A DNA stretch of 64,000 bases from Periplaneta americana. Its lineage: Eukaryota > Arthropoda > Insecta > Blattodea > Blattidae. The stretch is from contig NC_091132.1 in NCBI RefSeq assembly GCF_040183065.1, positions 162,822,102 through 162,886,101 on the forward strand, read 5' to 3'. The translations under genes and the position numbers were made by a program. Shown here piece by piece: positions 11,258-59,104 of this stretch (its first letter is position 1; every line of letters begins with the position of its first letter). Below the pieces are notes generated by a model, which saw only the letters and a list, made by a program, of their open reading frames with translations, was not told where the DNA came from and searched no databases.

Positions 11258-12366
11258 AATGAAACAAATTAATATAGATTTAAATAACACATTACTATAC
11301 AAGAGTGTATAGATTGTAGGATATGCTGATGATTTGGATATAATGGGAAGGTCACTGCAATCATTAGAAGTATATAACCAGCTAAAAATGACAGCTGTTA
11401 AGATTGGGCTTCAGATTAATACAGATAAGACTAAGCGAATGGTCGAAAGTAGAGATCGACCGGAAATACCGCCAATTTTGGGTGAATTTGAGATGGTGAA
11501 TGAATTTGAGTATTTAGGCATAATTCTTAATTCTAATATTGATAAATGGACAGAAGTACAATGGAGAATTTTACAAGCAAATAAGATGTATTTTGTGGTA
11601 CTGAAAATAATGAAATCTAATTGTGTACATAGAATAACAAAAGTGAAAATTTATAGAACTATTATTATAAACGTCCTATGTTATGGAAGTGAAGCCTCGG
11701 TCATGACAAAAAAAGATGGAAATGGCATTGGGAGCATTTGAACGGAAAATCCTCAGAAGGATTTTCGGACCAGTCCAACAGAATCCACAGTGGAAAATCA
11801 GGTACAACGCTCAATTATATAAATTGTACAATGATAATGATATAGTCACTTTTATCAAGCTTCGAAGACTGGAATGGACTGGTCACATACACAGGATGGA
11901 TGACCACAGGGTATATATGGTGTAAGACCTAAAGGTAGACCCATAAATAGATGGATTGATTCGGTAAACGATTTATTTATTTTATTGGGTTATTTTACGA
12001 CGCTGTATTAACATCTAGGTTATTTAGCGTATGAATGATATGAAGGTGATAATGCCGGTGAAATGAGTCCGGGGTCCAGCACCGAAAGTTACCCAGCATT
12101 TGCTCGTATTGGGTTGAGGGAATACCCAGGAAAAAACCTCAACCAGGTAACTTGCCCCGACCGGGATTCGAACCCGGGCCACCTGGTTTCACGGCCAGAC
12201 GCGCTGACCGTTACTCCACAGGTGTGGACTCGGTGAACGAGGATGCAAGGGTTTTGTTGGGGACAGCAGCTTGGAGGTGAGCGGCAAAGGATAGAGAAGA
12301 ATGGAGGAAAAGGATAGAGGAGGCCAAGGCTCGATTGTGGGCTGTGGTGCCACAGTAGAAGAAGAA
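11258..12366 (+). pseudogene. RTE-type LINE fragment inserted in a mariner, itself split by a SINE
   Basis: An exact 14-bp TSD, GATATGTCAGTTCT, at 11244-11257 and 12367-12380 bounds it. It encodes GYADDLDIMGRSLQS (catalytic YADD), IGLQINTDKTK, FEYLGIILNS, then FERKILRRIFGP and RRLEWTGHIHRMD. After the SINE it resumes KDREEWRKRIEEAKARLW. A frameshift lies near 11715. The tail is short AGAAGAAGAA. It is a different family from the LINE at 957 and 9657. Confidence 0.9.
11972..12226 (-). mobile_element. SINE family 1 copy inside the LINE
   Basis: TSDs GATTCGGTAAACGA (11958-11971) and GACTCGGTGAACGA (12227-12240), 14 bp with two mismatches. The minus strand starts CCACACCTGTGGAGTAACGG, has B-box GGGTTCGAATCCCGG and a body with GGGTAACTTTCGGTGCTGG, and ends GCGTCGTAAAATAACCC plus A-rich tail. 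Other copies: 33361-33620 (-), 43876-44135 (+), 57238-57453 (-) and a fragment near 21530-21640 (-). Confidence 0.92.
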
Positions 12367-22070: not shown

Positions 22071-22802
22071 GCGCTTCATGCCTTTGCTGCAGCAAAATGA
22101 GGGTCGAAAAAAATCGTAAGTAGGTCAAATGACTGCAAAATGGTGGAAAATTAATATTGGCTTCTATTTGTGCCGTAATATATTTAACCCTAAAAGAACC
22201 AAACATGTTAAATAATTTCGACTTCCATGATAATGACATGGAATTATTATTACTAGACGATTTTGACAATAATAAACGTTGCAAAAGACCAAAACCAACG
22301 AGTTTCTAACTCGTTGACCAAAACACACATTCCGCCATGATGGATCGTGCAGCTAGAGTTGGGTCGATTCGTGAACGAATCGTTCATTCGAACGACTAAT
22401 AATAAAGAATCGTAAGAATCGATTCGTGGTATCAACGAATCGTCGTTCAAAAGAATCGTAACGAATCGTCGTTCAAAAGAATCGTAACGAATCGTCATTC
22501 AAAAGAATATTAAGGAATCGGCATGGTATCGTAACCCACGATTCTATTCGTTGTTTGATGTAACCTGTCAACGGACATATCCGAACCGTGTCGAATGCTC
22601 CCGAGCGAGAGTGAAATCAAAATATATACTGCATTTGTTAAGTATGGAAAATAATGAACACAAACCTGAAATTTGCATAGTTAAATAGAGATGTAATGCA
22701 AAAAATGTACTTCATAATAAGGTTCAGTTGATAAATTATAATTTAGAGACATTATCTTGGGTAATTTTGTAGACTAATGGAGGTCATGCTGAATGGTTCC
22801 AG

Positions 22803-24276: not shown

Positions 24277-24890
24277 TTCCAGCCAATGAGAAAGAGACAA
24301 TCCAATGTCTCGCCTCTTATGCCATCTATGAGAGAGATGTAGAACGTTTTTGTTTTACGCGTGGCTTGCAAAGGAAAGTGTCTTGCGACGATTCAAAAGA
24401 ATAGTTGGAATCGCAGACTGGGAAGAATCGTGAACTCGTTGACGATTCAAAAGAATAGTTGGAATCGCAGACTGAGAAGAATCGTGAACGAATCGTTAGA
24501 ATCGATTCGTAATGTGTGATTGAATCGTTGGAATCGACTTCTGAAAAAGAATCGTGTTGCCCAACTCTACGTGCAGCAAACTCGTAAAGCGAAGTTTTGA
24601 TTTGCTGCACGCTTGCTACAGCGCTGCTGCAGCGATGGTGAAGCAAATGTAATAAAAGAACGGTCTTGCTGCAGCGCTTTACGTCTTGCTTTAAAAAAAA
24701 ACACACGGTTTCCCGAGTTAGAAACAGAAGACTATAGAGTGGCCATGTTGTCCTGTATAGTGCCCTTTGCGGTGCCACCGCGAAACACGGCAGATCTGAG
24801 CTAAGCGCCCACCTTTGTAAAAATTCGTCTGCTTACAATGTTGTATAACGGAGGTAAGAAGTACAAAAAAAAAAAAAACGAAGAAAAAAC

Positions 24891-29579: not shown

Positions 29580-29871
29580 TATCACATTCAAACATAATTC
29601 GCCTGTGTGAAGGACCTTATGTTTCTTTTTTAAATTTAAGATTCAGGATAACTCTTTCAACATGCATCGCATTTGAATGGTCTCTTGCCTCTGTGCGTCC
29701 CGCTTGTGAAATACAGATTCCATAGATTAATGCTTTTAGCCTGTGTGAATGCTAACATTTTTTTCCAAGTATACCAATTACCAGAATCACTTTACACACA
29801 CAGAGATTTAGAATAGCCTTATACCTGTGTGAATGAATGCATTTGCACTTAAAAATTACGATGCATGAATT
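29580..29871 (-). pseudogene. Relic zinc fingers 3' of gene B
   Basis: Past the stop, decayed finger pieces remain (for example KRPFKCDAC then a stop, and CTGTGTGAA linker-like motifs at ~25-90 bp spacing). The same relics sit 3' of gene C, so the array was once longer before duplication. Confidence 0.6.
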
Positions 29872-30907
29872 TCACTTGTGTGTACGTGCATGTCTCCTTA
29901 ATTTTGATGGTGCTAAGAAACGCTTTGAACAAATCTCGCACGTGAATGGCTTTTCAGCTGTGTGAATGCGCATATGCTGCTTGAGGTGTCCCGATTCCGA
30001 GAAATCCTTTCCACAAACGTCGCACTTGTATGGCATTTCACCCGCGTGTGAGCGTGCATGTCTGCTTAAATCAGTGGATGCCGAGAAACACTTTCCACAC
30101 AATTCGCATATGAATTCGCCTGTATGAAAGCGCATAATATGCCGCTTTGTGTGTCCTAATTGCGAGAAACACATGCCACAAACGTCGCACTTGTACGGCT
30201 TTACACCCGTGTGTGAGCGTCCATGTCTGCTTAAAACTGTAGATGACGAGAAACACTTTCCACACACTTCGCATTTGTATGGCTTTTCGCCTGTGTGTAT
30301 GCGCGCATGAATCTTAAGATTTGCCTTTAGTAAAAAACTTTTTCCACACACTTCACATTTGAATGGCTTCTCTCCTGTGTGTATGGTTTCATGTCTCTTG
30401 AGCTCTTGTGAGCTGCTGAAAGACTTCCCACAAGTATCACAATGAAATGACATCCCGTTTGTATGTAGAACTGCATGTCTCGTGACATCACGTCGTCTGC
30501 TGAAAGACTTCCCACAAGTATCACAAGGAAATGGCATCCTGTTTGTATGTATGACTGCATGTCTCTTGACATCACGTGGTCTGCTGAAAGACTTCCCACA
30601 AGTATCACAAGGAAATGACAACCCGTTTGTATGTAGAACTGCATGCCTCTTTATATCACTCAGTTGCATGAAAAACTTCCCACAGACGACACATTTGAAT
30701 GATTTTATTTTGTGTGTATCAAAATGAAATTCCAGAGATTCTAGTGTAACAAAACCCTCGTTGCATATATGACACTTGATACAAATATTGCTTATGTCTC
30801 TAATTTCCGCACCCTCTGGTCTGTTGCTTCCGAACTGAGTCCATTTGTCTTGTCGATCAATGCTGGCTTGTTCTTGTGACACACTCTTCTCAACATTATC
30901 CACAATG
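29872..30907 (-). CDS. Gene B exon 4: 11-finger C2H2 array
   Basis: Terminal exon of a probable DNA-binding nuclear protein. It starts at acceptor CCATTTCAG|C (30907), completing Ser with exon 3 and then IVDNVEKSVSQEQASID; there is no need for a start here, since the codon before DNVEK is GTG. Eleven C2H2 units follow: CHICNEGF..., FKCVVCGKFF, three FxCDTCGKSF units with atypical HTNxxxF linkers, then six more, mostly with TGEKP-type linkers. The unit FICELCGKCF has a shortened linker. Stop at 29874-29872. With exons 1-3 the protein is about 450 aa. Transcription-factor function is inferred. Confidence 0.9.
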
Positions 30908-32700: not shown

Positions 32701-33166
32701 ACAATGTAAAGAAAGTGGGGTGAGTGACAGTGATTCTCAAATTTCACTCAGTGATTGCTTTGACTAGAACCAGTTGAGTGGTCTTAACATACCCATTTGA
32801 TGATACTTCATTAATCTATCAAAACACAACTTCTCAAAATTTGCTGAACTATATAAATACTCTACATACAAAAGTTTAATTTACTAAATAAAGATAATAA
32901 ATTAAATAAATTACTGCTGATTGCCACAGTCAAAATAAAACGCTACAGCAGAATTTGCCAATGCTTGAAAATATTAATTGGTATTGTAAAAAATAAAGTT
33001 CACCAACTTAAGGATCAATAGAATTAAGACATGTAAAAATAAAAAGTAAATCCTACTGACAATTTGAAGAAGTTTCTATGAAACAGATGTTATAACTTCA
33101 CATTGTTCTCTGTTTTTATTCAGTTCTTGACCAACACCTTCCTTTCTTTAGGTTAACACAATGTTA

Positions 33167-33335
33167 GTCCATTACGTCTCCGTCCATTCGTAATTTGGTC
33201 CTAATTTTACGTTTGTCCAGTTACATGTTTGTCCTACATCAAATTTTGTCCACAAATCTTTCGTCCATGTTATTTTAGTATTAGCCTATGTGAAATTTTG
33301 TCCTATATACATTTTGTCCTTAACTGATCAAGTCC
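33167..33335 (-). repeat. Phased GTCC array, 16-17 bp period
   Basis: GTCC starts at 33167, 33182, 33198, 33215, 33231, 33248, 33263, 33300, 33316 and 33332. A degenerate unit at about 33283 fills the gap. The rest of each unit is AT-rich (often TTTTGTCC). A second copy lies at about 33775-33935. Confidence 0.85.
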
Positions 33336-33360
33336 AAATTTATTTACTTGAAATTAATAT

Positions 33361-33620
33361 ATTTTTTTTTGTTTTATTGGGTTCTTTTACGACGCTTTAT
33401 CAACATCTAGGTTATTTAGCGTCTGAATGAAATGAAGGTGATAATGCCGGTGAAATGAGTCCGGGGTCCAGCACCGAAAGTTACCCAGCATTTGCTCGTA
33501 TTGGGTTGAGGGAAAAACCCGGAAAAAACCTCAACCAGGTAACTTGCCCCGACCAGGATTCGAACCCGGGCCACCTGGTTTCGCGGCCAGACGCGCTGAC
33601 CGTTACTCCACAGGTGTGGA
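33361..33620 (-). mobile_element. SINE family 1 copy
   Basis: Full copy, head at right (inverse of CCACACCTGTGGAGTAACGG) and tail with T-run at left. B-box GGTTCGAATCC (one mismatch in the T arm). Confidence 0.92.
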
Positions 33621-34049
33621 CACCAATAGAATAAAGACATGTAGAAATAAAAAGTAAATTCTACTGACAATTCAAAGAAGATTCTATGAAACAGATGTTA
33701 TAACTTAATATTGTTCTCTGTTTTTATTCAGTTCTTGACCAACACCTTCCTTTCTTCAGGTTTGCACAATGTTAGTCCATTACGTTTTCTTCCATTTGTA
33801 ATTTGGTCTTAATTTTACGTTTGCCCACATACATGCTTCTCCTGCATCAAATTTTGTCCACAAATCTTTCGTCCATGTCAATTTAGTATTATGTGAAATT
33901 TCGTCCTATTTATATTTTGTGCTTAAATATTTAAGTCAATATTTATTTACTTGAAATTTTTATAGCTGTGTTTATTACAAAAAAAGAATCACTGAAATAA
34001 AACATGATATTTATTTTTAGTTATTTCAAAGAACAAAGATCATGCCCAT

Positions 34050-34253
34050 TCATAGCTGCTGTTTCTTAGAAAGTGTATTTTCCTTCTCTAATTTCCATCC
34101 TCGGAGTTCTGAGAGTTGCTGTGTAATTTCATTACAGGTTGATCGATTCTCATATCGCCCATATATCCTGGTTCGATTCTTATTATAAGAGTGGTGTTGA
34201 TAACAGTAGCCATCTTTTATGAACAGTGGTTTATTCCTTTTTTGAAGTAATTA
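34050..34253 (-). pseudogene. FLYWCH-type zinc-finger relic
   Basis: Minus-strand peptide KPLFIKDGYCYQHHSYNKNR, then YGRYENRSTCNEITQQL and a stop at 34050. The F..GY.Y....S..K......C pattern is that of FLYWCH domains, which occur in some Mutator-like transposases and host proteins. It lies between GTCC arrays (left) and a GGAC array (right). Confidence 0.5.
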
Positions 34254-34411
34254 CTTTGCGATCAATACCTGATAATTTTAAGTAATACTAATGTATGCAC
34301 TTCCCTAGCAACACCTGTTCATTTTTGAGTTCTTTAGTACTTGGTGTTATATTCTTGGCATCTGTTTAAAATGTGCTTCAAATATCCGAATATCCAAAAT
34401 AGATCACGATT

Positions 34412-34493
34412 GGAAAATATGTATATTGGACTAAAGTTTGTGGATTAAAATATTTCTGGACGAAATGTTGGATTGAACGAAAATGTTTGGACA
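34412..34493 (+). repeat. Phased GGA(C) array, inverted relative to 33167-33335
   Basis: GGA-starting units at 34412, 34428, 34442, 34458, 34470 and 34489; 34428, 34458 and 34489 are full GGAC. Similar to the array at 55349-55496. Confidence 0.65.
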
Positions 34494-35072
34494 GACATTC
34501 TTGAAAGCTTTCTTTATCTTCAAACCTTTTCTCTCCCTTTCGTAGTAAAAAACAGTTATTTTAGATAATCTTGCCTGCATTTCATACAATGAAAATCTGA
34601 CAGGAAACACAAACTAAAAATGCAGTGAAAAAAGAACAGAGAGTCGAAAAGCTCCAGCTAAGTTGGCGTTGCGAGGGTAACACAATGTGTATGTACTGAC
34701 CGGAAAAATTTATTGCAAGTGTTGCAGCACTCGAATTACGCAGCAAGAAAAGCGGCAAACTAACATAATGTACAGGGATTGCAGCCATAGTAGAAATGTT
34801 GCTTATCAAATAAGTGACATGATCGTACTCTAAATGGGATCATGGTCCTCGAAGGACAGCAAAATAGTACAGGGGCATATATAGTAGGAGTTGCAGTATG
34901 TTAATTATCATTGTAACAATTATTTTTGAGAATCTTATGTAATTTCACTATTAAGATATATTCAGGTGTTAATAAGAATAACCACACAAATATAGTAGAA
35001 TTCATTCCCTACATCTTCATTAAATTAAGTTCTGAAAGAACGGAAGAAGAAAAACCAGCACAGTACACTAAC

Positions 35073-43159: not shown

Positions 43160-44160
43160 TCCTAATTTCAACAGTACTATATCACGATGGTATGAGGACG
43201 ACAAAGGAAGTAGCCTCTTATGATCTCGATTGCAACGAAGATTTCGTGATAGTAAGCGAGCATGTGTCAGAATCTGAGTTAGAGCTGAGTGATGTTAGTG
43301 AGAGCGATGATCAAAATATGAATGATGATCTTCGGGTTCACGAATAATGTGTCTCACATTCCAAGAAAGAATAGGACTGTCGTTCAGGTATCCTCCATGC
43401 ATCACTCAAATCTTTTTGATGATGTAAGTGATAAATCAGAAATTATTGCATGTTATAACTTGACTAATGGTGACATGAAGTGTGCACAAAATAGCTGTGG
43501 TCGCCGAACCAGACGCTGGCCTACGGCCATATTTTTTTTAGAATTCTTCACATTAGCACAATTAGTGCATTTATCATGTACAGTTCCTACAATGACAACG
43601 AATTAATTTCCAGAATGTTTTTATCATGAAGAATCTTGAAAACGTACTCGTAACTCCCGATATGCATTATTAGAAACAACAAGTTCATTACTTTTGAAAC
43701 CCGAGTCTCCAGCAGAAGACTCTTTGGCTCTAAAACGGCTGTGTCATCATTTGAAGAGGAACTTGAGAAGCAGAAAAATTTCTATACCTGTCCGCCAAAG
43801 AAGCAACAGAAAAGAGCATACATTTGTCATTGTTGCAGGAAACCTCTCTGTTTGGAGTGTACAGTGAGGACATGCTTGTCCACACCTGTGGAGTAACGGC
43901 TAACGCGTCTGGCCGCGAAACAAGGTGGCCCGGGTTCGAATTCCGGTCGGGACATATTACCTAGTTGAGGTTTTTTCCGAGGATTTCCCTCAACTCAATA
44001 TGAGCAAATGCTGGGTAACTATCGGTGCTGGACCCCGGATTCATTTCACCAGCAATATCACTTTCACTTCATTCAGACGCTAAATAACCTGAGATGTTGA
44101 TACAGCGTCGCAGAATAACCCACTAAAAAAAAAAGAGACATGCCATAACTGCAATGGCAC
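43160..44160 (+). pseudogene. piggyBac transposase remnants
   Basis: An acidic N-terminal piece (VSESELELSDVSESDDQN, about 43250-43345) is followed at once by C-terminal blocks: KNRTVVQVSSMHHSN, RRTRRWPTAIFF, then QKRAYICHCCRKPLCLEC (43790-43865), continuing after the SINE as TCHNCNG. The missing middle includes the catalytic core. Frameshifts throughout. Confidence 0.65.
43876..44135 (+). mobile_element. SINE family 1 copy in the piggyBac cysteine-rich region
   Basis: TSD GGACATGC (43868-43875) / AGACATGC (44136-44143). Head CCACACCTGTGGAGTAACGG, B-box GGGTTCGAATTCC, tail CAGCGTCGCAGAATAACCC plus A10. Confidence 0.92.
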
Positions 44161-52879: not shown

Positions 52880-55345
52880 GAAACTCTCTTAATTTTGCAG
52901 CAAGAATAATTATTTTGCGTTTATTATGTGTGTAATATTGTAATGCTGTTACTTGTCATGACGTTAATTCAGGAAAAATATTTTTGCGTTTCAAACCTGT
53001 TAAAATATTCCAATTTGTTATTTGATAATTATTTTAGTTTTAAATTTTTCATTGAAGTATTCAACTGTTCAAATACTAAACAGCTGTTTTCATGCTTTCC
53101 AATATTTTTTTTCAAAAAGTAATTTTAAAACCGGTATTAATAACTTCACTCTTATTTTTCAAAACATAATATCGCCCATCTTTTTTTTTTTTCAAAATTA
53201 AACAATGAAAAAAATTTACGTAATCAATATTTTGAAAACATAATCTAGGCACAAAATTCTTTAGTTCTGCACTTTTTTCGATGAAAAAGGGTGAATTTTA
53301 ACAATGAATACAGTTTTTCGTTCCTTCAATGAAATTAAAGAAAATGTTGGAAGAAAGCTCCTCAATTCCTTATGCATCTAAAGCTCTCACATCAACAGAA
53401 CAAAGATATAGCAAAACAGAATATAGAATTGATAAGTTTGTGTTTTGATGCTGAAACATTCTGACAATATATCTCTGAAAGGGATTCAGTAAAGGTTCAA
53501 ACTGATCATAATTTCATGTATGTGTGTGTGTATGTGTTTGTGTGCTCTCACTTGAATTTCAGAGACAGCTGACGATAAACATGGAATTTCCTTGTTCCCA
53601 ATCTGAACCCGTTGGGGTGTCATTGACAGCCAAAATTTATCTCTGTATCAGTCGTACCACAAAATCAATATATAAGTATATAATTAAATTTATACTAGAA
53701 GATTTTTTTACCCCTTGACCGCTGTTTTCCTATTGTTTTTAATATGACTTTAGAAACTATAACTCAGAAATTCAGAACACATTGTATTAATTCTTAATTT
53801 ATACACAGAATAAAGATACAATATAAACTCGCAATAAGTCATTGTTAACATAGAGACTAATATTCTGAGAGATGTATATAGGTTTTTTTTTTTTTTTTTT
53901 TTTTTTACAAATTAAGAGATTATATGCACAACGCCTATCTTACTATATTGGCAAGGTGATTATACAGTTAGAATTTAACAGTAACACATATTCGGGCATG
54001 AACAACAATATTTTGAGAGACGTATATTTTAGAATTAATACAGTATTATTTTCAGTTAGCTTACGTACTTCCACATACTACAGTAACAACATGACAGAAG
54101 TATCTGTGAATTGTTTTCTCACAGTTGTAAATTTTTTTTCTTCCTCTTTTTGTATAAAATATAGTTCAGAATGTGAAAATACGGAATTAATGTCTGCAAT
54201 TTTGTGAGACTGTCCTTGAGATTAATTTTAATTTGGCCATTAGAAATGCCAGTCGCATTGAAATTGCTGTTAGGCTACTTAAAATCGAAAGATATGTTAG
54301 TATCATAGGAATGCGTGGAATAAAAACATCTTCTCTTTTCGTTTTTCCAGTTAATAGTGTCACTTCTATTACGTTTTGCATGGATTTTTTTTACACCATT
54401 TCCTCTTACATTGCATAATTTTGTGTGTCAATATTTCTCAACAGTACTATTGGTGATTCAATACAAAATATTAAATTATATGGCAGCAATCCGCGTGGTT
54501 TCAAAGATTTCAATGGGTCCCGAACTTCCTGTATCAACAACTGCAGTGTCGCCATCTGTGATTCACATGTGTCGATTTAGAAGGGATTAACACGTTGTAT
54601 GAACTTCACATGAACGAAATGTACGAGCACACTATGAGCTATTACTTTTTCATGGGAATAAGTTCATGTCGAAGCAACTGCATGGGAAAAAGATGTTGGA
54701 AACATTCAATAATTTATTTATTCCTTTAGAATATACATCCCGTACGTAAGAGGGTATAAACCAGAACCATATTCCTATTCCTCGTAATCTGTTGATTTAT
54801 TTTCTTTGGTCCAGGATAGAGTACTTCAATGCAACGAAGGGAAGTTATTTCTTTAATTTGTGTCACAAATTGTCGATTGAGACTCAACAAATAATGCATG
54901 AACTATGAATCAATAATATGAATTAGTCAGACAGTGTACGAATAGTGTGGTTGAAGGATTCCACTCTCAAATCCAACGACTTGTGATGGCACATCACGTG
55001 AACATTTCGCGATTCATTAGCCATTTGCAACAACAGAATCGGAAACAGAACGTTTAGTAACCCAGGTCCTTGTTGGCATACAAATATTAAGCGGCCAGTA
55101 AATATACTGTAGCCTATATCAATAATCAAACGAGAATATTCAACATTGTCCGTAATATTACCAAGATTATAAAGACAGGAATGAAAAATTTCGATATCTC
55201 AGAGAGACATCATATTATTTGAAATTATATAGTGACCCTCAAGAAGAACAATAGATGTATCTTTTGTATTAAGTACCATAATTAGGCGATAAGAAAAATT
55301 TTTCAACACATTCCTTGCAGTTTGCCTTGTCGGATATTTTAGGGA
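52880..55345. other. No gene seen
   Basis: AT-rich with a short (TG)n near 53522 and a T24 run at about 53883-53906. No coding or clear repeat. Confidence 0.45.
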
Positions 55346-55348
55346 AAT

Positions 55349-55496
55349 GGACGCATTTGTGGACATTTTTAAGAAGAGGACTTGCTGACAGTGGACCTTT
55401 TCAGGTAAGGACATTTATATGGCATGGACGAATTTTCAATACGGACATTTCTAAACGTTGGACATTTTGGTAGAGAGGACCTATTGCAAAATGGAC
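55349..55496 (+). repeat. Phased GGAC array, 10 units
   Basis: GGAC starts at 55349, 55361, 55378, 55393, 55409, 55426, 55443, 55460, 55477 and 55493; the last six intervals are 17, 17, 17, 17, 17 and 16-17 bp. Sequence between motifs is variable. Same design as 33167-33335 in reverse. Confidence 0.9.
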
Positions 55497-55606
55497 CATA
55501 TCTCACTTAACCGACGAAGAGTGTTAGATGGTATCAGTGTTTCACAAATAATCAATTTGTCACAATAATGATCAGTAGAAGACTGTTAAAATACTGAAAG
55601 AGTATG

Positions 55607-56739: not shown

Positions 56740-57235
56740 GTCAGTTCAATCAATATCGGTAAATAGCCAAGTGATCACCGGAGTTCAATTAAATATGCGA
56801 ACAATTAGTCAAAGCAGCACCTGGAGTGTTGCGTAACAATAAGGCGCACCTAATGAAAAATTGATTTTTACTACAATTAGAGGAATGCGCCCCAAAGTTT
56901 TGAAAACGCAATCCGCCTTCTGCTTCTAAGAGGAAACCACAGTGATTTTCAAATAATTTTCTGATTTGGGGAAGTACGTCAAATTTTATAAACATATGTG
57001 AAATATATGTAAATAAGTAATAGAATTATTGTCAATTTTACTGTATCAAATTATCTTCTTAATGGTGAAGAAATGGTCGATTGCAGCATTAATACTTCAC
57101 GAGTAATATTTCTCCAAAATGCTGACTGACGTAGAAATATATTGCGTTCAATATATCATATTATGGAGATTATTACACAGAAGAAGTTCATGTAATGGAG
57201 ATCTAAACTTGTGTGATTACTTAATTTTTGTATTA
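56740..57235. repeat. Segmental duplicate of 28447-29580 (3' flank of zinc-finger genes)
   Basis: Runs collinear with the gene B 3' flank (AATGAAAAATTGATTTTTAC, GTGATTTTCAAATAATTTTC), lacking its two insertions. Confidence 0.8.
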
Positions 57236-57237
57236 TT

Positions 57238-57453
57238 TATTTTTTATTTTATTGGGTTATTTTACAACGCTGTATCAACATCTAGGTTATTTAGCGTGTG
57301 AATGAGATAAAGGTGATAATGTCGGTGAAACGAGTCCGGGGTCCAGCACCGAAAGTTACAAAGCATTTGTTCATATTGGGTTGAGGGAAACCCCCGGGAA
57401 AAACGTCAACCGGTTAACTTGCCGCAATCGGGATTCGAACCCGGGCCTCCTGT
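57238..57453 (-). mobile_element. SINE family 1 copy, head-truncated
   Basis: Tail and body as in the other copies; stops after the B-box (GGATTCGAACCCGGGCC) and runs into T-rich DNA. Absent from the equivalent gene B flank near 29500, so it inserted after duplication. Confidence 0.88.
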
Positions 57454-57584
57454 TTTTTTTATTAGATTTAAAATCATATAAAAATGAGTATTCTTTATTG
57501 CTGTCATATTTCACATGGAATATGCTACATGCCTTTTGAACTTATCCATATACGTAAGCATATTCAGCAAGTATCACATTGGAA

Positions 57585-57891
57585 GATAATTCGCCTGTGT
57601 GAAGGACCTTATTTATTTGTTATTATTTTTTTTTTTTTTAACTTTCCGATTCAGGAGAACTCTTTCAAAATACATCGCATTTGAATGATCTCTTGCCTCT
57701 GTGTGATTGCAGAGGCTTGTCAAATACAGAATCCATAGATTAATGATTTTAGCCTGTGTGAAAGTTAACATGTTTAACCAAGTGTACCAATTACCAGAAA
57801 CTCTTTACACGCACACCCATATTAAGAAGGACCTTATTTCTGTATGAAAGCATGCATTTGCGCTTAAAAAACGATGCATATGTATGGCGTT
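57585..57891 (-). pseudogene. Relic zinc fingers 3' of gene C
   Basis: Same decayed units as 29580-29871 (GKRSFKCDVF then a stop). Confidence 0.6.
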
Positions 57892-59104
57892 TCACCTGTG
57901 TGTACGTGCATGGCTCCTTAATTTTAACGATGCTAAGAAACGCTTTCCACAAATCTCGCACATGAATGGTTTTTCGCCTGTGTGATAGCGCATAACATGC
58001 TCCTTTCGGTTACCTGATTCCGAGAAACCCTTTCCACAAACGTCGCATTTGTATGGCTTTTCACCTGTGTGAGAGCGTACATGTCTCTTTAAAGATGTGG
58101 ATTCCAAGAAACCCTTTCCACAAACGTCACATTTGTATCGCTTTTCACCTGTGTGAGAGCGTACATGTCTCTTTAAAGATGTGGATACATAGAAACCCTT
58201 CCCACAAACGTCACATTTGTATGGCATTTCACCCGTGTGTGAGCGAGCATGTATGCTTAAATCAGTGGATGCCGAGAAACACTTTCCACACAATTCGCAT
58301 ATGAATGGCCTTTCGCCTGGGTGAATCCGCATAATATGCCGCTTGGTGTGTCCTAATTGCGAGAAACACTTTCCACAAACGTCGCACTTGTATGGCATTT
58401 CACCCGCGTGTAAGAGTGCATGTCTTCGTAAAACTGTGGAAGACGTGAAACACTTTCCACACACCTCGCATTTGTATGGCTTTTCGCCAGTGTGTATGCG
58501 TGCATGAATGTTAAGATTTGCAATTTGTAAAAAACATTTTCCACACACTTCCCATTTGAATGGCTTCTCCCCGGTATGTATTGGTGCATGTCTCTTGAGC
58601 TCTTTTGATCTACTGAAAGACTTCCCACAAGTATCACAATGAAATGACATCTCGTTTATATGTAGAACTGCATGTCTCTTGCAATCATGTCGTCTGCCGA
58701 AAGACTTCCCACAAGTATCACATAGAAATGACTTCCTGTTTGTATGTACAACGTCATGTCTCTTGCCATCACGTGGTCTGCTGAAAGACTTCCCACAATT
58801 AACACAATGAAGTGACATCCCGTTTGTATGTAGAACTGCATGTCTCTTTATGTCACTCAGGTTCAAGAAAAACTCCCCACTGACGTCACATTTGAATGAT
58901 TTTATTTTGTGTGTATCAAAATGAAATTCCAGAGATTCCAGTGTAACAAAACCTTCGTTGCATATATGACACTTGATACATATATTGCTTATGTCTCTAA
59001 TTTCCGAACCCTCTGGTCTGTTGCTACCGCAATGAGTCCATTTGTCTTCTCGATCAATGCTGGCTTGTTCTTGTGACACACTCTTCTCAACATTATCCAC
59101 AATG
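57892..59104 (-). CDS. Gene C zinc-finger exon: 13 C2H2 units, two damaged
   Basis: Acceptor CCATTTCAG|C at 59104 as in gene B, then IVDNVEKSVSQEQASIDRED and 13 finger units to a stop at 57892. Unit 2 (FKCDVSGEFF) has Ser for the second zinc Cys; unit 6 (FKWEVCGKCF) has Trp for the first. The C-terminal part has two extra YKCDVCGKGF..STSLKRH units compared with gene B, which look like a recent internal duplication. The frame is otherwise open. Earlier exons are not in the window, so expression cannot be judged. Confidence 0.85.

Follow-up and report, generated by a model that had tools for sequence, protein, structure and literature searches.

Phased GTCC arrays at the inverted ends of a probable Phantom/Muta-type Mutator-like element with a FLYWCH relic

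Arrays of the window and the family behind them

The window (the whole analyzed stretch of 64,000 nucleotides from Periplaneta americana, C16:162822102–162886101) contains arrays in which the tetranucleotide GTCC, or GGAC in the opposite orientation, recurs at steady spacing. In the first array, exact GTCC units start at 33167, 33182, 33198, 33215, 33231, 33248, and 33263, forming a seven-unit chain with steps of 15–17 that runs to 33266; after a step of 37 across a gap, the array resumes at 33300, 33316, and 33332. The second GTCC array is degraded, with exact GTCC only at 33775, 33856, 33871, and 33903, and is followed by a GGA(C) array at 34412–34492 (steps of 16, 14, 16, 12, and 19; full GGAC in three of six units). 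A stronger array of nine GGAC units at 55361–55496 (− strand; steps of 15–17) was absent from an earlier note on this DNA. In 300 first-order Markov simulations of the window, the maximum chain length was 2 in 289 runs and 3 in the other 11, compared with the observed chains of 7 for GTCC and 9 for GGAC. The phased arrays reported in the earlier note are thus real.

The second GTCC array and the GGA(C) array lie in the arms of a non-autonomous element of the Mutator/Phantom type at 33759–34508 (strands are given where one was assigned). Its left arm (33759–33948, + strand) comprises a GGTTTGCACAATGTTA end and the degraded GTCC array, and its right arm (34412–34508, − strand) the GGAC array and a GAAAGC end. 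The decayed FLYWCH relic at 34125–34241 (− strand) derives from the N-terminal region of a FLYWCH+MULE transposase reading frame. The element is flanked by target-site duplications, TTTCTTCA at 33751–33758, where the paralogous loci L046 and L047 have the same site, and TTTCTTTA at 34509–34516, which matches the left one at 7/8 positions.

A local tandem duplicate of the left arm with ten GTCC units occupies 33151–33361 (+ strand), with TTTCTTTA beside it at 33143–33150. At the duplication junction lies a unit (33364–33622) that we take to be tRNA-type SINE-like. Copies of this unit, 88–95% identical to the one at the junction, are found in the window at 11972–12229, 33364–33622, 43877–44134, and 57234–57456. 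The stretches 33016–33361 and 33624–33964 are direct duplicates with 88% identity, whereas L046 and L047, on the same contig to the right of the window, contain this stretch only once and lack the SINE-like unit at the junction. Hence the first two GTCC arrays represent one left end that was duplicated locally, not two ends, and the proposal that three arrays enclose the relic does not hold.

Elsewhere in the window, 84-bp tandem units at 29869–30684 and 57869–58848 presumably represent C2H2 zinc-finger exons; together with L046 and L047 beyond the right edge, they may belong to a tandemly duplicated zinc-finger gene cluster. Two short tandem arrays at 22434–22520 and 24387–24489, 1.9 kb apart, share GAATCG/CGATTC words and are possibly another repeat-ended element.

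We searched the host genome (3.23 Gb, 91 contigs) with positions 33100–34600, which gave 2985 first-look candidates, 40 of which were scored. Apart from the window copy, 39 copies were scored, of which 35 start at query 645–666 (window 33744–33765) and 29 stop at query 1385–1394, with more right-array pieces listed beyond. This right limit is the place where the window copy lacks ∼74 bases of its right array, not the true end of the element. Alignment of 36 of the 39 fetched copies yielded an 823-bp consensus with the left end GGTTAGCAGAATGTTAGTCC and, read inward from the opposite side, GCTTTCAGGAATGTTTGTCC. The consensus has ten GTCC at 17–177 (steps of 15–17 and one double step) and ten GGAC at 651–804 (steps of 14–17 and one double step), more than are left in the right arm of the window copy, which shows 64 differences from the consensus in 730 aligned bases. 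Each long terminal inverted repeat (TIR) thus combines a terminal motif with short tandem repeats, as in type 2 Foldback-like elements.

Target-site duplications of 8–9 bp (at least 7/8 or 8/9 flank bases matching) accompany 22 of 32 scorable copies, nine of them perfect, compared with 2/992 for mismatched pairs. The 32 remain from 39 fetched copies after exclusion of L046 and L047, which represent the same insertion as the window, and of five more without a clear end. This length falls within the 8–10 bp of Phantom/Muta-type Mutator-like elements. On average, 37 copies diverge from the consensus by 4.6%. The 823-bp family is an old, high-copy, interspersed, non-autonomous family present on many contigs with common ends. 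These ends, and the target-site duplications outside them, bear out the idea that the arrays form a transposon's inverted ends.

FLYWCH and MULE coding beside the arrays

At 54903–55512 (+ strand), the window holds a second, truncated element, the 3′ part of a transposase-bearing family, with an outer end CTTAACC at 55512. It comprises a C-terminal relic of a MULE-type transposase (54947–55054, + strand; no Pfam match for the fragment itself) and, as its right arm, the array of nine GGAC. A genome search with 54850–55520 gave 343 first-look candidates, and 40 were scored; besides the window element these include 39 others, 36 of which stop at query 662–666, at or next to the predicted end at 55512, and several scored relatives are also matches of the transposase query described below. 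None of the 39 aligns before query 54, indicating that the second element is cut at 54903. To the left of this second array, no target-site duplication partner matching at 7/8 or 8/8 was found.

A 153-residue transposase query, taken from a locus without a chain of three in its 1.5-kb flanks (L061), gave 3292 first-look candidates, 150 of which were scored. Twelve of these loci, roughly one in every 12 rows of the list, were chosen manually, and 1.6 kb downstream was read; several seem to be of the same subfamilies, so that they are not 12 independent cases. Chains of GGAC reach at least four units in 9 of the 12 and at least three in 11, and GTCC chains never exceed one. Six simulations per locus reached at most three for GGAC or GTCC and at most four for any 4-mer. 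The best-phased 4-mer with at least three different letters is GGAC or the overlapping TGGA at 11 of the 12, including L088, where a chain of three is no better than simulation. At the twelfth, L083, it is CATT, with GGAC at 5.

The four loci with the longest GGAC chains were also read upstream, and all four have a GTCC chain of at least three at a distance of 0.65–1.1 kb. By eye, target-site duplications were recognized in E6 (8/8) and E13 (8/9), and none in E15 and E4. None of the four is a full element; they are short derivatives that retain the 3′ part of the transposase. A scan of viral contigs for a 5-unit pattern returned 63 stretches, just one of which (70% GC) had chains of at least four on both strands, and a relative there was rejected; a transposase scan of the same kind of contigs gave eight stretches by pattern, none of which was confirmed.

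Profile searches located at least 150 FLYWCH places and at least 150 scored matches to the MULE catalytic domain (PF10551) in the host. The 153-residue region lies directly behind same-strand PF10551 matches at C4:49612068/49612377, C10:103010097/103009665, C12:92299474/92299751, C13:38678375/38678690, and C16:157786446/157786013. The FLYWCH finger is N-terminal at L061 and L077, where the transposase stretch follows the FLYWCH match within at most 1 kb on the same strand. At L061, the pieces DATF and MMDFELS may belong to a DDE triad. At L077, a FLYWCH match of 49.2 bits (cut-off 23.6) and transposase frames stand behind a GTCC chain of four; the frames are broken, the C terminus is lost, the downstream GGAC chain has just two units, and the MULE profile scores 15 bits, below its cut-off of 27.6. 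Among the loci read, none was an intact, full-length element that has both arms.

We turned the 30 best-scoring of the at least 150 FLYWCH loci, which are not a random sample, to the sense strand and inspected 1.5-kb flanks. A GTCC chain of at least three occurs upstream in 13 and a GGAC chain of at least three downstream in 11, with both in nine; wrong-orientation chains never exceed two. Neither chain of three is found within 1.5 kb in 15 of the 30. With both chains at 9 of these 30 loci and GGAC chains of four or more at 9 of the 12 transposase loci, the suggested tie between FLYWCH/MULE coding and the arrays is supported. A FLYWCH+MULE element with a divergent FLYWCH domain and without GTCC/GGAC arrays, L078 (C10:54962700–54967700), represents a second lineage in the same genome. 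Together with the 15 loci that have no chain, it indicates that FLYWCH-MULE coding does not require GTCC.

At L055, L058, L063, L066, L070, L073, and L076, FLYWCH is cut shortly after NADM-DN/YN residues, and the GGAC array starts within ∼50 bases; this truncated FLYWCH plus GGAC derivative has apparently been amplified. In the window relic itself, decay precludes a Pfam FLYWCH match. The same frame in the 823-bp consensus does match, with 28.8 bits (cut-off 23.6) over profile positions 2–40 of 62. Because the last part of the domain is missing, the consensus FLYWCH piece is unlikely to bind DNA by itself.

That GTCC would be read by FLYWCH has one alternative of some weight, if still an unlikely one. 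The transposase might recognize the tetramer through a part other than FLYWCH, or the reader might be a host protein, e.g. a regulator of a promoter within the arm. The lack of the last part of FLYWCH in the consensus and in several short elements fits this alternative, and promoters are also present in MULE TIRs (PMC6446971). Against it, just GTCC and words overlapping AATGTCCA recur as an inverted phased 4-mer in the 1.5-kb flanks of the 30 FLYWCH loci. In a FLYWCH-domain tree of 32 rows, moreover, the array label falls mostly within one group. Good support is limited to 5 of the 28 inner branches and the label changes six times, so that a single clade of array-bearing FLYWCH domains is weakly supported, a tendency and not proof. 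A precedent for reading by a finger is Galileo, whose N-terminal finger binds several sites in long TIRs (PMC3688188).

Tetramer, pitch, and spacers

We measured 18 arrays, namely the two arms of the 823-bp consensus, the second window array, and the FLYWCH-locus arrays of at least five units. Of 150 steps, 143 fall within 14–17, with a mode of 16; the 146 steps within 12–18 average 15.5, or nearly 1.5 turns of B-DNA. The core ∼(A/T)TTn-GTCC-A is common to the 30 units of the two 823-bp arms and the second window array.

When the left and right arms of the consensus are aligned, the score exceeds that of 300/300 spacer shuffles; beyond the outer 40 bases, it is reached by 1/300. The left-arm tetramers are 92.5% identical in the right arm, whereas the spacers are 68% identical versus 65% in the shuffles. 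Tetramer and pitch are accordingly the best conserved part, as the earlier note had proposed. Its further statement that these are not ordinary TIRs stands only in part: the arrays do occupy inverted ends, but the arms are diverged TIRs, and TIRs of tandem repeats had been described before for Muta, Tm1, Phantom, and Foldback elements (PMC5225508, PMC3169594, PMC3688188).

The arrays might instead be minisatellites that arose by slippage inside transposon ends, with the tetramer as the leftover of a common unit and without a role. Spacer identity within arrays does lie above composition in 18 of the 18, and amplification is clear at L066, where a 30-unit chain has a spacer identity of 0.79 versus 0.45 expected. 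L055 and L076 are likewise amplified arrays with similar spacers, indicating that slippage also acts. For the two arms of the 823-bp consensus and the second window array, however, identity and composition are 0.43/0.37, 0.46/0.35, and 0.36/0.30, i.e. just 6–11 points apart, whereas GTCC and pitch hold; the comparison between the arms points the same way. Slippage as the whole explanation is thus improbable. Chance, with three arrays flanking an unrelated FLYWCH gene relic, might draw on the missing Pfam match of the window relic but is refuted by copies across many contigs that repeat the same arrangement with target-site duplications.

At L066 (C1:9191453 onward), the GGAC arm has grown in a satellite-like manner, with matches listed from 9191643 to 9195367 (∼3.7 kb), often every 31 bp, and the array adjoins a FLYWCH piece cut before its last ligands. 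Genome-wide, three GTCC at steps of 15 and 16 gave 2293 matches, a count of matches and not of elements, the start of whose listing is dominated by this expansion. The reversed pattern, a control that is not small, gave 674; GCTC in the same frame gave 70 and its reverse 210.

Non-CpG divergence in the inserted copies is 5.8% for tetramers, 4.1% for spacers, and 4.5% for the interior; at G/C alone, the values are 6.4, 9.4, and 7.6%. We do not claim selection on the tetramers of inserted copies, which show no overall sparing and some at G/C alone. As the tetramers were not spared after insertion, any constraint acted on the source elements.

Candidate mechanism and known systems

We consider it highly probable (roughly 85%) that the element at 33759–34508 is a decayed non-autonomous Mutator-like copy of the Phantom/Muta type with foldback-like ends, in which GTCC is a candidate FLYWCH site and the phased arrays would load the transposase. 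The transposase of intact elements would have a FLYWCH finger at its N terminus, followed by a MULE catalytic domain, and this finger would read GTCC in the form TTn-GTCC-A. The WRKY fold, which is related to FLYWCH, reads a short GAC-type core, and it is by this kinship that FLYWCH is proposed to read GTCC. For a FLYWCH model from structure prediction (mean pLDDT 76.7), the match to the solved FLYWCH domain 2rpr has a TM of 0.74, and that to a WRKY–DNA complex is weak (E 0.56).

Many weak sites ∼1.5 helical turns apart could allow several transposases to line up at one end, and an array of them may give a 4-bp signal sufficient specificity for a 3-Gb genome. With sites at half-integral turns, neighbors would lie on opposite faces, letting several transposases assemble; assembly on repeated sites has been proposed for Galileo (PMC3688188). 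Slippage could then alter the length of an array, and short copies retaining both arrays together with part of the transposase frame (here the FLYWCH piece) could have been moved in trans.

More tentatively, and short of an even chance in our estimate, the signal itself may be a comb, i.e. a 4-bp FLYWCH site repeated at ∼1.5 turns, whose specificity would come from number and spacing and not from a contiguous TIR. The spacers of such a comb would be free to drift. Tm1, and presumably also Muta1, keeps a similar pitch with other repeats, so that the pitch may reflect the packing of transposase on DNA. Divergence appears to have stripped the repeat to a candidate site, ∼TTn-GTCC-A at a 14–17-bp pitch, and the same family has a FLYWCH finger. 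The family thereby offers one short oligonucleotide and one finger as a testable pair, and thousands of first-look candidates in one genome form a large natural collection of arrays varying in unit number and spacing.

Elements of this kind were known before, and from its sequence features the host family appears to be a further FLYWCH-MULE with tandem-repeat ends. In finger, MULE domain, and target-site duplication, the features by which it was assigned, it resembles the Phantom group (group 20). Members of that group, found in arthropods and other hosts, have a MULE transposase with a FLYWCH or SWIM finger or none, TIRs of 18–613 bp or none, and target-site duplications of 8–10 bp (PMC6446971). 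Complete MULEs with TIRs of 80–640 bp are reported from two Blattodea species; the main text of that paper does not mention Periplaneta, FLYWCH, tandem, or subterminal, and its supplement may already list the host family (PMC13359780). In the open-licence literature, we found no published description of the family. Galileo, the source of the functional model, is a P-superfamily foldback element that likewise has tandem-repeat TIRs with several sites for an N-terminal finger; unlike the host family, it belongs to a different transposase superfamily, and its finger is THAP, not FLYWCH (PMC3688188).

The closest known elements appear to be Tm1 and Muta1. Tm1 of Meloidogyne resembles the host family in its Phantom-type FLYWCH+MULE transposase, FB-like composite TIRs of variable length, asymmetric outer motifs, MITE-like derivatives, and target-site duplications (8–10 bp in Tm1), and its motif A1, CGGTTAA, shares GGTTA with the GGTTAG/GGTTAA ends found here (PMC3169594). 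It differs in its nematode host, in a target-site duplication that is most often 9 bp, and in its 13–15-bp repeat, whose pitch is near the 14–17 bp of the host family; the 14-bp Motif C consensus CGATTCAGTATCCGC is not the host unit, which is TTn-GTCC-A with variable spacers (PMC3169594).

In Aedes, 10 of 14 MULE families have tandem-repeat ends, including Muta1, which is classed as type 2 Foldback and excises and reinserts in yeast with 8–9-bp target-site duplications (PMC5225508). The host family resembles Muta1 and other Muta elements of Aedes aegypti in its FLYWCH + putative DDE transposase, 8–9-bp target-site duplications, terminal motif with subterminal tandem repeats, and non-autonomous derivatives with variable repeat numbers (PMC5225508). 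The Muta1 TIR has a short terminal motif and nine 12-bp subterminal repeats with 3–4-bp spacers; the resulting pitch of 15–16 bp is like that of the host family (PMC5225508). In contrast to these 12-bp units, it is a few positions around GTCC that are fixed in the host family. Its distinctive feature is that the arms are conserved mainly at GTCC and in their pitch, whereas the spacers have drifted.
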